From Chelativorans salis (GTDB taxonomy: Bacteria > Pseudomonadota > Alphaproteobacteria > Rhizobiales > Rhizobiaceae), in NCBI RefSeq assembly GCF_025336525.1, contig NZ_JAOCZP010000008.1, positions 1-64,000 on the forward strand: DNA of 64,000 bases. The letters run 5' to 3'. Below, one piece after another: positions 7,725 to 63,040 of the stretch (position 1 is the first letter of the stretch; every line of letters begins with the position of its first letter). Position numbers and translations under genes: made by a program. Below the pieces are notes generated by a model. The model worked only from the letters and a program-made list of their open reading frames with translations. It was not told the origin of the DNA and ran no database searches.

Positions 7725-7799
7725 TGGTGGGCGTGACAGGGATTGAACCTGTGACCCCTTCGATGTCAACGAAGTGCTCTCCCGCTGAGCTACACGCCC
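7725..7799 (-). tRNA. tRNA-Val (anticodon GAC)
   Basis: On the minus strand the sequence folds as a full cloverleaf. The acceptor stem GGGCGTG (7799-7793) pairs with CACGCCC (7735-7729), the anticodon loop TTGACAT lies between CTTCG and CGAAG, the T-arm reads GGTTCAATCC, and CCA is encoded (7725-7727). The GAC anticodon reads valine GUC/GUU. No neighbouring integrase or duplicated tRNA 3' end is visible, so it does not look like a used attachment site. Confidence 0.97.
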
Positions 7800-9307: not shown

Positions 9308-9526
9308 CAGGTCGCGGCCGCTCTGCCAGCAAGGCGGCGGGGTAAAAAAAGAGACCGTATCGTTTACACGACACGGCCATAAGTCTAGGGAGGAACCGCC
9401 CAAGGAGGGCATAGATAGAATCAACTATCCGAATCAAATTTTATGTTGCGCTGCACAATTGTCAAGCCCTAAGTCCGAAATCGCGCAAAAAAGAGCTGGA
9501 TAATCGTGCCGCAGCGGGGGAATCCA

Positions 9527-11294: not shown

Positions 11295-11580
11295 GGATCG
11301 GGTTCGCCGCTTTCGAGCGGGGGCACCTCGACCGTGATAGTGAGGAGGCCCGTCAAAAGCAAAGGATTTCATGAGCGGAGGGCGTTGTCTATCGCAGACC
11401 GGGGATGGTGCGAGGACCATCCCCGGCATTCCGGAACACATGGAAGGGACGGTTGCATGTGCCCCGGAAAGTACGATGGGTGAAAGGGTAAAGCCGCGTG
11501 TGTGAACGTAAGGCGAAGGGTTCGTTCAGGCTGTGTTCATCTTTCGGTTATCGCGGTTGTCGTGCCCCGCCCTTCTCGAT

Positions 11581-11609
11581 CTTGAACGGCGCGCGAAAAA
11601 TACCCAAAT
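11581..11609 (+). promoter_or_regulatory. RpoH (sigma-32)-like promoter of hsp20
   Basis: CTTGAAC (11581-11587) and CCCAAAT (11603-11609), separated by 15 bp, match the heat-shock consensus CTTGAAA-N(11-16)-CCCATNT well. Transcription would start near 11616, giving a 5' leader of about 100 nt in front of the small heat-shock gene. Confidence 0.7.
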
Positions 11610-11615
11610 CTGGCA

Positions 11616-11718
11616 CGCGGCCGCCGTGAATGGGGCCGCTGGCCAGGAAAAGGGAACGCCGAGACGGGTTTCCGGCAGTGGCCAAACGCAAACTTGTTGC
11701 TCAACAGGAGGACAGACC
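11616..11718 (+). promoter_or_regulatory. ROSE-like RNA thermometer in the hsp20 leader
   Basis: The leader ends in TTGCT (11697-11701) followed closely by the Shine-Dalgarno sequence AGGAGG (11706-11711) and ATG at 11719. This is the arrangement of ROSE elements, where a U(U/C)GCU strand pairs imperfectly with the Shine-Dalgarno region at low temperature. Upstream, GCC-A-GGAAA (11642-11650) can pair with TTTCCGGC (11669-11676), giving a second stem. Rhizobial hsp20 genes commonly carry ROSE elements. Pairing was judged by eye only. Confidence 0.62.
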
Positions 11719-12186
11719 ATGCGTCATGTCGATTTTTCCCCGCTTTACCGTTCGACGGTCGGCTTCGACCGGCTTTTCACCATGCTGGATTCGCTTGGCC
11801 AGCTTGATGGCGGTCAGCAGACCTACCCGCCCTACAACATCGAGCGCACGGGCGAGAACGCTTACCGTATCTCGATGGCAGTCGCCGGCTTCTCCGAAGA
11901 CGAGATCTCGGTCGAGGCGCACCGCAACGTGCTGACGATCAAGGGCGAGAAGAGCGATGAGCAGAAAGACGAGGGTGCCGAGGTGCTTTACCGCGGTATC
12001 GCCGCGCGCACTTTCGAGCGGCGCTTCCAGCTCGCCGATCATGTCGAGGTGCAGGGCGCAACGCTGAAGGATGGCCTCTTGCACATCGATCTCGTCCGCA
12101 ACATCCCCGAGGAGATGAAGCCGCGCAAGATCGCGATCACCTCCTCGAAGGAGAAGTCGAAGCAGATCGAATCCAAGGCCGCGTAA
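11719..12186 (+). CDS. small heat-shock protein, Hsp20/alpha-crystallin family
   Basis: A 155-residue class A rhizobial-type small heat-shock protein (IbpA/HspH-like). It is an ATP-independent holdase that binds unfolding proteins as large oligomers. The N-terminus reads MRHVDFSPLYRSTVGFDRLF. The alpha-crystallin domain runs from about 38 to 130 (YNIERTGENAYRISMAVAGF through HIDLVRNIPEEMKPRKI), with a basic C-terminal extension. The start is fixed by AGGAGG seven bases upstream; longer in-frame starts fall inside the structured leader. Regulation appears two-layered: an RpoH-like promoter and a ROSE-like thermosensor. A strong terminator follows. Confidence 0.95.
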   Translation: MRHVDFSPLYRSTVGFDRLFTMLDSLGQLDGGQQTYPPYNIERTGENAYRISMAVAGFSEDEISVEAHRNVLTIKGEKSDEQKDEGAEVLYRGIAARTFERRFQLADHVEVQGATLKDGLLHIDLVRNIPEEMKPRKIAITSSKEKSKQIESKAA

Positions 12187-12212
12187 GGCCTTCAGACTCA
12201 TCGAAACGGCAG

Positions 12213-12240
12213 AGCGGCGCCTTGCGGGCGCCGCTTTTCT
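12213..12240 (+). terminator. intrinsic terminator after hsp20
   Basis: AGCGGCGCC (12213-12221) and GGCGCCGCT (12227-12235) form a perfect 9-bp GC-rich stem with loop TTGCG, followed by TTTTCT. It ends hsp20 transcription. Its T-tract overlaps the stop codon of the convergent doxX-like gene. Confidence 0.88.
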
Positions 12241-12736
12241 ATCGGGCGAACCGCGCAAGGAGGTGATCGGCCGAAGCCTTCCCCGGCCCCCATGCCATGA
12301 TGGCGAGCGCCATCGCCGCCCATGTAAGATGCAATGGCCAGCCGCTCGGCACCGTCACCTGTATGACGATGGTCATGGCCAGCAGGCCGAGGGCGGCAAG
12401 CCGTGTCGCCAGCCCGACGACGAGCAGCAGTGGAAGCAGGATCTCCGCCGAGCCAACGAGGAAAGCGACGATGCCAGGTGCGGGAAAGCCGTAGGGGCCG
12501 CCGGGCAATTGCAGCTTGAATTCCTGGGCGAAGAGAAGCACCGCCACCTCGTTGAGATCCAGGAAGCCGTCCCATTTGTTGATGCCTGAACGCCAGAAGG
12601 GGACGGCAAGCGCCAGCCGCAGCGCCAGTTGGGTAAGCGACGGGAACGCGATTGTCCTCACCAGCGCATTTACCCGCTCGACCAGCGTCGAAAGCGCATG
12701 CCTGCCTGCGTAACCGGCATCTTGCATATCGGCCAT
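12239..12736 (-). CDS. bufD: DoxX-family membrane protein, BufD of the bufferin operon
   Basis: A 165-residue inner-membrane protein of the DoxX family with four hydrophobic segments (about 31-48, 72-92, 97-120 and 126-145). Recognisable features are the first-helix motif LRLALAVPFWRSGINKWDGF and GSAEILLPLLLVVGLATRLAA. DoxX proteins are the fourth component of bufferin operons in Caulobacter; their role there is not well defined and may be redox or membrane-related. ATG at 12736 has a GAAGGG site eight bases upstream. A GTG at 12745 overlapping the bufC stop is an alternative. It is the last gene of the operon. Confidence 0.85.
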   Translation of the reverse strand: MADMQDAGYAGRHALSTLVERVNALVRTIAFPSLTQLALRLALAVPFWRSGINKWDGFLDLNEVAVLLFAQEFKLQLPGGPYGFPAPGIVAFLVGSAEILLPLLLVVGLATRLAALGLLAMTIVIQVTVPSGWPLHLTWAAMALAIMAWGPGKASADHLLARFAR

Positions 12737-12741
12737 CGTCT

Positions 12742-13548
12742 TCACCCTTCAGATACCGCCACCGCTGTGAATGCGCCGGCTTCAAGCATGCCGGCGATGT
12801 TGGCGGCCGGAACGAACCTCTCGTCGTCTTCCAGTGCCGCGACCACCGCCTCGCCAAGCGGCTTGCCCGCCATCAGCCCTTCCAGGAACGCCGCACCCCC
12901 AGGCGGCAGGCGGCGCACAATGACTTCCAGCTCCGGGCGCGTCACCAGGCCATCCTCCGGGTCGGCGGTCTCCAGCCGGCCGACGGGTCCGTCCTGGCGG
13001 TTGAGCGCGAATATAGTGACGGCGGGGAAGCGGGAGCGCACGACCCTTGCCGCCGGATGGGCGGTGAAAGTCGCTTGCGAGAGCTTTTCCGGCGGGATCG
13101 CGGCCAGCGCATCCGGTTTCAGCGGCCCTGTGTCGGCGGCGTGATAGGCGTCGAGCCAGGCACGCTCGATGCGCGCGACATCGGCGAGATAGGGAAGCGT
13201 GCGTGCGTGCTCGAAATTTTCGATGAAATCTGCGAAACCGCGCCCGTATTCGAACAGCAGCGGCGATGTCGGCGGGGTCTGCCGCACGTGGATCCTGGCC
13301 ATGGCGCGGAAGAAGTCTTCGCCAACGATGCGCCGTGTCGCCGGAAATGTGTCCGCCAGCGCTTTGACGAGGCTCACCGTCACATTGTTGCGGTAGACGT
13401 TGTAGCGCTTCTTCGCCGCCTTGCCGTTCGGCCCGGCGATCAGTCCAGGCTCCTCCACCTCGGGGTCGAGCAGCGGCGGCGTGAAGGCGCCCGCATAAGC
13501 TAGGCGGCCACGTCCCCGTTTCGCCAGCGATATCACCCGCTCAGGCAT
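12742..13548 (-). CDS. bufC: DUF2063/HvfC-BufC family partner protein of the MNIO enzyme
   Basis: A 268-residue protein of the HvfC/BufC family (DUF2063, putative DNA-binding domain). The N-terminal helical domain contains [19 protein letters not shown] and [20 protein letters not shown], the signature of this family, then [11 protein letters not shown]. The C-terminal part resembles a winged-helix or RRE-like module. In bufferin and methanobactin-like pathways such proteins pair with the DUF692 enzyme and help bind the precursor peptide. The annotation as DNA-binding in databases is probably misleading. It overlaps bufB by 8 bp, and its stop lies in the start region of bufD. Confidence 0.88.
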
Positions 13549-14452
13549 TGGCCGCGCCGCGTTCCCGGGACGCCGCGTAGCGGTCGAGAATTTCCTGCGC
13601 CGCCGCGGCCTCCGCCTTCAATACAGGCCAGTCGGGAATGTCGCTGTCCCATTCAACGAGCGTGGGAACGGGACCACGGCGGCCGATCACGATCTCGTAG
13701 AGCTTCCACACGGCGTCCGCCACCGGCCCGTCGTGGCTGTCGATCAACAGAAGCGCGCCTTCGTCGTCCTCCTGCTCGGCGTGGCCGGCCAAGTGGATTT
13801 CGCCAACATGTTCCAGCGGGAAGTCAGCAAGGTACTCCAGCGCCGAATAGCCATGGTTGGTGGCCGAGACGAAGACGTTGTTGACGTCGAGCAGCAGGCC
13901 GCAGCCCGTGCGCTGGACAAGCGCGCTCAGGAACTCGGTCTCGCCCATCGTCGATTCCTTGAAGACGACATAGGTCGAAGGGTTTTCAAGCAGGATCGGC
14001 CGGCCGATCGCCTCCTGCATCTCCTCGATATGCTCGGCCACACGGGCAAGCGTCGCCTGTGTATAGGGCAGCGGCAGCAGGTCGTTGAAATAGGTCGTCT
14101 CGTGGGTCGACCATGCCAAATGCTCCGACACCAGCGCCGGCTCGTAGCGGTCGACCAGGGATTTGAAGCGTTGCAGATGGCCCTTGTCGAGCGGTTGCGC
14201 GCCGCCGATGGACATGCACACCCCGTGAAGCGAGACCGGCCACCGCTCGCGGATGGCGGCAAGTGCCGCATGGGGCGGGCCGCCGGCGCCCATATAGTTT
14301 TCGGCGTGGACCTCGAAGAAGCCGACGGGGGCAGGGTCGGCATGGATCCCGACGAGGTGCTCGGGCTTCAGGCTCGCCCCGGCGCTCCCATGCACGGGGA
14401 ATGCCGGAAAGCGGGCCGCCTCGACGCGGTCGACGACAGGCATACCGATCAT
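13541..14452 (-). CDS. bufB: DUF692 multinuclear non-haem iron oxidative enzyme (MNIO), BufB
   Basis: A 303-residue TIM-barrel enzyme of the DUF692/MNIO family (MbnB, BufB). MNIOs bind two or three iron ions and oxidatively modify cysteines in RiPP precursors. Candidate metal ligands are present along the barrel: His49 and Glu51 (VHAENY), His76 (LHGVCM), Glu110/His111 (SEHLAW), Glu156/Asn157 (LLENPS), Asp189 and Asn191/Asn192 (LLDVNN), His220/His224 (EIHLAGH), His240 and Glu267. The start at 14452 follows GGGAGG; upstream codons have no family similarity. It sits 28 bp downstream of the DUF2282 precursor gene, so it most likely converts cysteines of that peptide to thiooxazoles, as described for Caulobacter bufferin 1. 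Confidence 0.93.
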
Positions 14453-14480
14453 GGGTGCCTCCCTTTCCGGCAGTTTTCGA

Positions 14481-14804
14481 TCAGGACGGGATGTCGCGGT
14501 CGAGCGCCTCGGGCGAGCCCATGCGGTCGCCGGGAAGCTCCATCGTCTCGCAGGTGCCTCCGGCAACGAATTTCCAGGCGTTGCCCTGATAGTCCACCGT
14601 CGAGGTGCCCTGGCAGGTGGTGCCGGGTCCCGCGGCACAGTCGTTCTGGCCGGCGAGTGCCACGCCGTAGCACTTCTCCATGCCGGCATCCATCGCCGCC
14701 TTGACTTCGGCTTCGCTCAGAGGAGCCGCTGCGGCGCCGGTCGCCAGCGCGGCGGTGACGGCACTCGCCAGATAGGCGGCGCCAACGAAGGTCTTCGTGG
14801 ACAT
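14481..14804 (-). CDS. bufA: DUF2282 bufferin precursor peptide, BufA
   Basis: A 107-residue DUF2282 protein, the precursor of a bufferin RiPP. An N-terminal Sec signal peptide (about 1-27, ending in ATGAAAA) replaces the usual cytoplasmic leader, so the product should be exported to the periplasm. Four cysteines lie at 45 (MEKCYG), 56 (NDCAAG), 64 (TTCQGT) and 85 (GGTCETM), matching the conserved four-Cys pattern of the family; the stretch [18 protein letters not shown] is typical. In Caulobacter, modified bufferins bind copper and protect the cell from it. The gene has a strong GGAGAG Shine-Dalgarno site and heads the bufABCD operon. Confidence 0.92.
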
Positions 14805-14833
14805 GTTCTCTCTCCTCTTGGGGTTTCGAAAAA

Positions 14834-14924
14834 CGACCGGTCGGTCGCCGGCCGGTCCGTTCTCCCAAAGGAGGCAGTCACTTGGAAATCAAGGTCGCGC
14901 GATCAATCGTCACGGCCTGGTTAC
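14834..14924 (-). promoter_or_regulatory. candidate control region of the buf operon
   Basis: Upstream of bufA lies a dense palindromic patch. CGACCGGTCG (14834-14843) is a perfect 10-bp palindrome, and GACCGG (14835-14840) pairs with CCGGTC (14852-14857). Further up, on the minus strand, GTAACC occurs (14924-14919). It resembles the -35 element I recall for the sigma-F factor that controls the Caulobacter bufferin operon, but no convincing matching -10 element is present at the right distance. No regulator gene is adjacent. Function is inferred. Confidence 0.3.
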
Positions 14925-14952
14925 AGCGGCGTGAGCGCGGCGTGCGCAGCCT

Positions 14953-16002
14953 TCAGGCCACGATCTGACCGAACCGGTCCACCTCCTCCTCGGTGGTGGC
15001 GAAGCTGGTCACGAACCGGAGGAGCATTTCGCCTTCGCCGAGCAAGCTTGCGTATGGCGCCGGCCAATCGTGGAACGCGACGCCGCCGGCCTTGAGCTCC
15101 TCGGCTGTTGCGGTTTCCATGACGGTGAAGACTTCGTTGGCGTCCGGCCGCCAGGCGAGCCTAAGCCTGGCCGACTTTTCCACATGACCGGCGAGCCGCG
15201 CGGCCATCGCGTTGGCATGGCGGGCGTTCTTCAGCCACAGGTCGTCGCGGAAATAGGCGTCGAACTGGGCGGCGATGAAGCGCGATTTGGAGAAGAGGTG
15301 GGCGGCGCGCTTGCGCAGGAAAGGCATGTCGCGGGCTTGTCCGGGGTCCATCACGACGATTGCCTCGGCGCACCAGCAGCCGTTCTTGGTGGCACCGAAG
15401 GAGACGACGTCGACGCCGCGTTTCCAGGTCATCTCCGCCGGCGTGGTGTCGAGGGCCGCGAGCGCGTTGGCGAAGCGGGCGCCGTCCATGTGCAGCGGCA
15501 GGCCATGGGCGCGGCAGGTCTCAGAGATGGCAGCGATCTGGTCGAGCGAGTAGACCGTGCCGATCTCCGTCGCCTGGGTGATGGAGACAGCCATGGGCTG
15601 GCCCATATGGACAAATTCCGCCGGGAACTGCCGGATAGCCTTTTCCAGCGCTTCGGTTCCCACACGGCCGAGAGCGCCGTCGACGCCGTGCGTCCTGGCG
15701 CCGCCGGTCAGATATTCCGGCGCTCCGCCCTCGTCCTCCAGCATGTGTGCATGTGCGTGGCAGAAGATGACGCCGCCCGGCCGGTTCGCAAGCGCCATGG
15801 AGAGCGAATTGGCGGCCGTGCCGGTGGCGACGAAGAAGACCGCCACCTCGCGCTCGAAAATCTCGCAGAAACGCTCTTCCACCCTGCGGTCGATGTCGCT
15901 CAGGCCGTAGGCCGTGGCAAAGCCGCCCGAGTGCTCGGCCAGCGCTTGCGTGATGGCCGGGTGGGCACCGGCCCAGTTGTCGGAGGCGAAGTTGATCGTC
16001 AT
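14953..16002 (-). CDS. ltaE: low-specificity L-threonine aldolase
   Basis: A 349-residue PLP enzyme of the beta-eliminating lyase family (aldolase class I fold). It cleaves L-threonine or allo-threonine to glycine and acetaldehyde. The Schiff-base lysine is Lys206 in SFGATKNGCW, Asp173 and Arg176 in HMDGARFANAL contact the cofactor, and the HAHAHMLEDEGG segment (82-93) lies at the active site. ATG at 16002 is preceded by GAGG; 43 further upstream in-frame codons have no family character. It is divergent from gltB across a 480-bp regulatory region. Confidence 0.9.
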   Translation of the reverse strand: MTINFASDNWAGAHPAITQALAEHSGGFATAYGLSDIDRRVEERFCEIFEREVAVFFVATGTAANSLSMALANRPGGVIFCHAHAHMLEDEGGAPEYLTGGARTHGVDGALGRVGTEALEKAIRQFPAEFVHMGQPMAVSITQATEIGTVYSLDQIAAISETCRAHGLPLHMDGARFANALAALDTTPAEMTWKRGVDVVSFGATKNGCWCAEAIVVMDPGQARDMPFLRKRAAHLFSKSRFIAAQFDAYFRDDLWLKNARHANAMAARLAGHVEKSARLRLAWRPDANEVFTVMETATAEELKAGGVAFHDWPAPYASLLGEGEMLLRFVTSFATTEEEVDRFGQIVA

Positions 16003-16203
16003 CGGGTGAACCTCTAAGCTGCGGGGCGCACCCTTGCGTGTTGCCGGCGTGGATTCAAGAATTATGTAACGCGGGTGGCGTGGCAGCCTGTTGATGTTTG
16101 CGAACTTGCTGAAGGGACGTAAATGCCGCAACTTTGTTGCTCTCCCGGAGCGGTTTTTTACATTTTCGTCTTGTGTGGCGCTCCGTTTTCTGGCATGTGA
16201 GGA

Positions 16204-16228
16204 AATAGGACAGGAGTACTGTCTTATT
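16204..16228. promoter_or_regulatory. inverted repeat, candidate operator upstream of gltB
   Basis: AATAGGACAG (16204-16213) and CTGTCTTATT (16219-16228) form a 10-bp inverted repeat broken only by one G-T wobble, around GAGTA. It lies about 30 bp upstream of a TATAAT box, where an activator or repressor would bind, and between the divergent ltaE and gltB genes. The identity of the binding protein is unknown. Confidence 0.4.
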
Positions 16229-16256
16229 TATCCGCTGTTCGCGGGCCGGTTTGCGC

Positions 16257-16262
16257 TATAAT
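16257..16262 (+). promoter_or_regulatory. candidate -10 box of the gltBD promoter
   Basis: A perfect TATAAT in a GC-rich surrounding, 220 bp upstream of the gltB start. No good TTGACA-like -35 element lies at 16-18 bp, which suggests either activator dependence or a chance match. The inverted repeat at 16204-16228 is just upstream. Confidence 0.4.
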
Positions 16263-16337
16263 GGCGGCATTAAGGCACCAGAAGAATGCGCGGATATGGC
16301 GGGGCCCGGGGTGGGAATCCTGGCGCATCGCCTACTA

Positions 16338-16374
16338 GAAGAAGCGTACCGTGGGAGACGGTAAAGCGTTCTTC
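16338..16374 (+). promoter_or_regulatory. leader hairpin upstream of gltB
   Basis: GAAGAA (16338-16343) pairs with TTCTTC (16369-16374), and inside it TACCG pairs with CGGTA around GGGAGA, with a small internal loop. The hairpin is followed by CGGCTTTTCG. It resembles a weak terminator or attenuator in the gltB 5' leader. No leader peptide was identified. Confidence 0.3.
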
Positions 16375-16483
16375 CGGCTTTTCGTAAGATATGCCGACCG
16401 ACCGACCGAGATGCGCCGTCGATCAGAGGGCCGCTCGAAACAGACCCGACGCCCCGGAGGGGCCGAACGCGGAGGATGAAGCG

Positions 16484-21211
<4,728 letters not shown>

Positions 21212-62501: not shown

Positions 62502-62639
62502 TTTCGCTCCTTATGGCATTTCGGACCCGACAATCGACGCTCGGTGGATTTTTTTCAAGCTCAGGCAGATTTTTCATTGATTGTGACAGGCGGGAAGATT
62601 ATATCGCGCGTGCCCAAAGTCGCACGTGCCTGTGGGTGT

Positions 62640-63040
62640 CCGCCGAACCTCGAAATGGCGAGGAAGTCGGTAAGGTACCTGGAACTAACCCCTCCAGTCG
62701 GTTTCGCGGCCAACCACGAAATCGAGGACATCTTGAAGCAACGACGGTGCGGGCCTTTCTGGTGTCTGCCGGTTGTCCAAAAACCGGGGTTACTGAAGAG
62801 GCACACCTTCATTGCCGGCAGTGCGGTTGGGGTCTCCCATACCAAAGCTGAGGCAGACAAAGCAGAGCATTCGCCGCGAGGCGGAAGCTCATCGTCATGC
62901 GTCGAGCGCAACCGTGGTTTCCGGTGATTTTCCACCCTCCGGTCCATCGGTCCGTTCATCGCATCCTTTGTCCACCGCGGGCCCTAAAAGTCCGCAGAGC
63001 TTGAGCTTTGATCGAAGGCGGCTGCGGCCGCCTATGGAGA
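62640..63040 (+). ncRNA. speF-type leader RNA upstream of the decarboxylase
   Basis: The 545-bp spacer before the decarboxylase holds a long structured leader. AACCACG (62712-62718) is complementary to CGTGGTT (62913-62919), and several local hairpins lie between. Alphaproteobacterial ornithine decarboxylase genes commonly carry the long speF leader (Rfam RF00518), thought to respond to polyamines, and the position and size fit. The boundaries are approximate, and the match was made by eye. The first part of the spacer (62502-62640) presumably carries the promoter. Confidence 0.55.

Follow-up and report, generated by a model that had tools for sequence, protein, structure and literature searches.

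A bufferin 1 operon of Chelativorans salis preceded by a conserved block, possibly a second control region for bufferins

By which route is the bufferin 1 operon of Chelativorans salis controlled? The question is raised by positions 12239-14804 of the window (the whole stretch of 64,000 nucleotides analysed here), which very probably hold a complete bufferin 1 (Buf1) operon. The operon itself is ordinary, its class being already known, well annotated and named in databases, and more than 20,000 members are reported (PMC13097082). The control region is the less ordinary part of the locus.

The first-pass annotation of this DNA had placed four minus-strand genes here, separated by overlaps or short gaps, and its coordinates proved exact and all four reading frames unbroken. 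The gene bufA (14481-14804, 107 aa) encodes a DUF2282 precursor with cysteines 45, 56, 64 and 85, bufB (13541-14452, 303 aa) an MNIO (DUF692) bufferin maturase, bufC (12742-13548, 268 aa) a protein with a DUF2063 N-terminal domain, a second domain and a predicted PME type 1 fold, and bufD (12239-12745, 168 aa from a GTG start) a DoxX-family membrane protein. Bufferin 1 operons often, though not always, include a DoxX gene. Between bufA and bufB there are 28 nt; bufC overlaps bufB by 8 nt and bufD overlaps bufC by 4 nt. The start taken for bufB is the ATG that fits its homologues, the mechanical open reading frame beginning further upstream at 14689, and bufD also has an in-frame ATG at 12736. 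The families that had been named for the four products were all recovered above the curated Pfam cut-offs (DUF2282, 1.5e-24; MbnB_TglH_ChrH, 6.4e-106; DUF2063, PF09836, 9.6e-25; DoxX, PF07681, 1.3e-17), and the proposed check of whether HMM searches would fail to assign DUF692 and DUF2282 returned both. The expectation that generic annotation would label all four genes hypothetical was not borne out, since NCBIfam and UniRef already carry names for BufA1, BufB and BufC. The MNIO and DUF2282 families each have a single place in the genome (5.66 Mb, 19 contigs), in both cases the one in the buf operon.

The A-B-C-D order of Caulobacter bufferin 1, which had also been claimed, agrees with the published one: CC3254-CC3257 of Caulobacter vibrioides/crescentus follow the same succession of DUF2282, DUF692, DUF2063 and DoxX (PMC3511200). 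A locus of the same bacterial family with the same kinds of genes is SMb20530-SMb20527 of Sinorhizobium meliloti, where SMb20530 is described as a membrane protein, SMb20529 as DUF692 and SMb20528 as DUF2063, followed by SMb20527 (PMC6180224).

The conserved block upstream of bufA

Bufferin 1 of Caulobacter is controlled by SigF/NrsF through a promoter GTAACC-N16-CGAA (PMC3511200), and the bufferin 1-type operon of S. meliloti is under RpoE7, of group ECF16 (PMC6180224). The locus described here differs from both. A search for NrsF (PF06532), positive in Caulobacter as a control, gave 0 matches in the window genome, and within 300 nt upstream of bufA there is no match to GTAAC-N16/18-CG[AT][AC]; the leader carries another conserved block. 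The S. meliloti operon has an ECF16 promoter and a divergent rpoE7-ecfR7 pair, and the box described below is not reported there (PMC6180224). Among the top-ranked literature matches we found no published bufferin control region beyond the SigF/RpoE7 type.

Alignment of the leaders of 11 carriers gave a conserved core, TTGATTTCCAANTGA, which in the window reads TTGATTTCCAAGTGA (14878-14892, minus strand) and, with up to three mismatches allowed, is matched nowhere else in the window, 0.63 matches being expected by chance. The genome contains a single exact match to TTGATTTCCANNTGA, the box of bufA; at up to two mismatches it contains 68, compared with 20 for the reversed pattern. A stricter pattern, TTGATTTYCANNTGA, has nine matches in 16 genus genomes, six of them before bufA and three elsewhere. 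An ungapped alignment of 47 bufA upstream regions extends the box to a 60-bp block (14863-14922, minus strand), conserved, as counted from the box start, at positions -29, -21 to -18, -10, -7, 0 to 14, +23 and +29. Among the 47 sequences T is found at -10 in 44, C at -7 in 44, T at +23 in 39 and A at +29 in 46, and [GT]TGA-like letters occupy -21 to -18. The arrangement TTGA-N7-[GT]TGA, to which additional half-sites are added some two turns upstream, resembles the sites of OmpR-type response regulators.

Several tests show the conserved control block to be real. Of 88 leaders, 44 contain at least 12 of the 15 box letters, whereas 30 dinucleotide shuffles gave 0.43 such leaders on average and never more than 3. 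We also searched 84,980 species (genome_contigs collection, contigs of at least 3 kb) for the core followed at a spacing of 48-76 nt by GAGGAG, the ribosome-binding site. This yielded 28 matches, of which 25 immediately precede a bufA homologue and three belong to Akkermansiaceae, Verrucomicrobia and Gammaproteobacteria records. The reading that we favour, with somewhat better than even confidence, is that an alternative regulator uses the block as its operator or promoter.

Such a block could also be a housekeeping promoter of the usual kind whose elements are strongly conserved, which would leave the operon constitutive in these lineages. TTGATT could serve as its -35 element, and the conserved T +23 and A +29 keep a fixed distance; however, the letters from +23 to +28 are unlike TATAAT, a scan of 11500-16600 for sigma-70-type promoters found none, and the conservation extends upstream by 20-30 bp more than a plain promoter requires, so that we consider this explanation unlikely.

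It is less likely still that the bufA leader works as an RNA switch, in which TTTCC of the box would pair with the GGAGA ribosome-binding site across a hairpin and block translation. The leader does have a GC-rich hairpin followed by TTTTT between the box and bufA (14834-14854, minus strand), stable hairpins are common in individual leaders, and RNAalifold, applied to 33 of the 47 leaders, proposes exactly the TTTCC:GGAGA pairing around a CCGG hairpin. Nevertheless the paired letters are nearly invariant and hence give no support by covariation, and the column-shuffle control (z -13.8) is weak because shuffling breaks up the conserved blocks. Moreover, 24 box-less leaders of the SigF type fold as strongly (mean z -1.86, 16/24 below -1) as the 47 leaders with the box (mean z -1.54, 30/47 below -1), and an Rfam search of 14600-15100 gave no family at the cut-off. 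The rigid, ungapped spacing over 60 bp and the conserved letters upstream of the box fit a DNA element better. A terminator or attenuator before bufA was considered separately and rejected, five terminator-like sites being found in 11500-16600 where shuffling predicts 4.4. By eye, the U-run after the leader hairpin is seen only in the window genome and two others (G000, G001, G003) among the 11 carriers.

Distribution of the box and of SigF-like sites

We compared 30 loci taken by BufB rank, calling the box where at least 12 of 15 letters matched at 79-112 nt before bufA. The box was found in 16, a SigF-like site in five and neither in nine, and all five loci with a SigF-like site belong to genomes with NrsF. 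Among 151 family genomes, BufB is present in 80 (95 places) and NrsF in 51. Of these places, 63 have no NrsF within 6 kb, and in 29 of them the pattern TTKATTTYCANNTKA is found at 440-671 nt upstream of the bufB match; in the 32 places with NrsF it is never found (Fisher p 6e-7, which exaggerates the significance because related genomes are not independent).

Sixty further leaders were read, 20 chosen for carrying TTKATTTYCANNTKA, 20 unlinked to NrsF and without the pattern, and 20 linked to NrsF. The unlinked group comprised 11 with a looser box, two with a SigF-like site, both from genomes with NrsF on another contig, and seven with neither, while the NrsF-linked group comprised 17 with a SigF-like site and none with the box. 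Pooling gave 88 different loci, in which 47 have the box (20 of these having been chosen for it), 24 a SigF-like site, 17 neither and none both. A strict rule by which the box replaces NrsF is contradicted by one genome (G001) that has the box and an NrsF gene elsewhere, and by the 17 loci with neither element. In the BufB tree at least three changes between promoter types are counted, on 145 columns by a quick method with many forks open, and a group of eight operons of the SigF type (support 99) is placed among box operons. Since the leader hairpin is present in both promoter types, it is not part of the switch between them.

We propose that bufferins have a second control region, apparently not described before, and that the block is this region. 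In its full form the proposal, which we regard as reasonably probable, is that bufferin 1 of Rhizobiaceae has two mutually exclusive control regions, either the ECF16/NrsF promoter or an undescribed 60-bp DNA element around the core described above, nearly dedicated to this operon and recognised by a regulator. The two would have been exchanged at least a few times with the leader hairpin and the genes kept, placing the same copper peptide under different sensors. If this is true, a copper-peptide system has been rewired so that another control replaces the sigma/anti-sigma pair, and the 60-bp element, occurring almost only at the bufferin operon, would be a sharp bait for the regulator and its signal, be it copper or other.

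Products of the operon and their proposed working

BufB passed the NCBIfam equivalog model MNIO_BufB (NF050167) with 385.6 bits against a cut-off of 310, and it also remained below the cut-offs of ApyH and ChrH. An operon of the oxazolin/Hvf or methanobactin type is extremely improbable, for although the HvfB and MbnB models match BufB too, and those of HvfC and HvfX match BufC and BufD, the HvfB and MbnB scores are below cut-off (234.8 bits versus 360 and 55.9 versus 325) and the precursor is a DUF2282 protein in whose sequence EGKCG repeats are absent.

The candidate iron ligands of BufB, another element of the first reading that alignment bears out, are H76, H111, E156, D189, N192, H220, D238, H240 and E267. 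Except for H76, these are identical in the alignments with 3bww, TglH (8hci_D) and MbnB (7dz9_A); H76 is shared with 3bww, and the alignments to TglH and MbnB do not extend to it. The aligned residues are taken to be metal ligands. For N192, D238 and H240 the assignment relies on the alignment to 3bww and on their correspondence to N175, D242 and H244 of HvfB, whose replacement abolishes activity (PMC13419390).

The N-terminus of BufA, a basic MSTKTF followed by an Ala-rich hydrophobic run, looks like a Sec signal peptide. No NCBIfam model was assigned to BufA, and several of its matches are named 'BufA1 family periplasmic bufferin-type metallophore'. Its cysteine spacing, C-x10-C-x7-C-x20-C, is kept in 120 of 120 homologues, these being the best 120 of at least 7,986 matches found among 8,000 scored candidates.

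For BufC a sequence search of the PDB gave no match. A structural model built from 35 aligned sequences (mean pLDDT 83.3, pTM 0.79, residues 1-20 below 50) had three matches under E 0.001, namely chain A of TglHI in 8hci and 8hi7 (E 2e-5 and 3e-5, TM 0.55) and NGO1945 (3dee, E 6e-4). Since the DUF692 protein of TglHI is chain D, we take chain A as TglI. The TglHI and NGO1945 structures are those named for the MNIO-partner fold in PMC12452194, and BufC, judged from its model, appears to be a PME type 1 partner, a type with DUF2063 plus an RRE-type domain in about 250-260 aa. Its relatives are named 'HvfC/BufC N-terminal domain-containing protein', and BufC and BufD stay below the NCBIfam cut-offs of HvfC (45.4 bits, cut-off 142) and HvfX (60.6 bits, cut-off 80). 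In related operons the place of bufD holds two distinct sorts of DoxX protein (window, L036, L037, L038, L039, L040, L052), one of 165-169 aa (G000, the window genome, and G001, G003, G009) and one of 186-217 aa (G004, G005, G010, G022, G036, G034); in the one pair compared the two sorts share a 31-residue match at 61% identity.

Modification and copper binding of BufA would follow what is known of its relatives. In Caulobacter bufferin 1, as later papers report, 5-thiooxazoles on the two central cysteines have been shown. Here bufABCD would be transcribed as a single unit, its promoter lying in the 150 bp that separate bufA from the aldolase-like gene described below, under the 14863-14922 block. 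The putative Sec-type signal peptide of BufA may double as the leader recognised by BufC, as is known for Buf/Hvf relatives, and BufB, with its iron cluster, would together with BufC oxidise C56 and C64 to 5-thiooxazoles before export. After export by Sec a C45-C85 disulphide may form, and the thiooxazoles would bind periplasmic copper and lower free copper.

The captophorins (oxazolin/HvfABC, fontiphorin, gonophorin) are alike in that an MNIO enzyme and a DUF2063 partner install 5-thiooxazoles on a Sec-exported peptide (PMC13097082, PMC13419390), but their precursor has EGKCG repeats and not DUF2282, and the HvfB cut-off exceeds the score of the BufB described here. Methanobactin MbnABC has the DUF692 fold and the metal ligands in common, whereas its precursor and partner are others, it serves copper acquisition and not sequestration, and the MbnB cut-off is not reached here.

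Genomic site and history of the operon

Upstream the buf site is bordered by an aldolase-like gene (PLP-dependent, Beta_elim_lyase; 14957-16131, minus strand), the true start of which is likely nearer 16005, and downstream by ibpA (11728-12186, plus strand), encoding a small heat-shock protein of the IbpA/Hsp20 family. Between the convergent bufD and ibpA a perfect hairpin, GCGGCGCC-CGCAA-GGCGCCGC (12214-12234, minus strand), was recognised by eye, the terminator scan not having reported it, and is probably a terminator shared by both genes. In genomes that lack buf, similar hairpins, likewise seen by eye, lie between ibpA and the aldolase-like gene.

BufB is present in 34 of 61 relatives. Within the genus the aldolase-like gene and ibpA each occur in 16/16 genomes and buf in seven, the window genome included; all seven carriers have the order aldolase-buf-ibpA, and in eight of the nine non-carriers the two flanking genes are 82-265 nt apart. 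Three genomes of other genera (G022, G036, G034) share this setting on either side of buf. We infer that the buf site is old and has undergone repeated loss; repeated gain at the same site is less likely. Recent arrival is disfavoured because the chromosomal setting is conserved. A plasmid-borne origin was considered and rejected; 19 plasmid records match by megablast, none of them over more than 80% of the query.

The genome without buf that departs from the short spacing (G015, L050) has its aldolase and ibpA separated by 17.4 kb of other DNA, and the site therefore accepts other inserts too. In G001 a gene for an Omptin-family outer-membrane protease (Pfam 4.3e-48; L033, 5567-6601, minus strand) stands between aldolase and bufA, and G003 has a gap of similar size at that place, which the window does not have.

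Within the operon bufA has apparently undergone exchange, its tree being in conflict with bufB, bufC and the flanks (window, L033, L034, L037, L038). The window's BufA shares 89% identity with its counterparts in G004 and G005 and 71% with that of G009, whereas BufB is nearer to G009 (81%, versus 70% for G004/G005), as are BufC (73% versus 47-49%) and the flanking aldolase and IbpA. A BufA tree holding the window group with G009 was rejected (AU p 0.004), and so was a BufB tree holding it with G004/G005 (AU p 3e-5), the groups for both tests having been named after the identities were seen.

Elsewhere in the window, Rfam models identified the sRNA ar45 (62612-62758, plus strand) with a speF leader directly after it (62767-62920, plus strand); the mmgR (suhB) sRNA lies at 9338-9417 (minus strand) and a tRNA-Val at 7725-7799.
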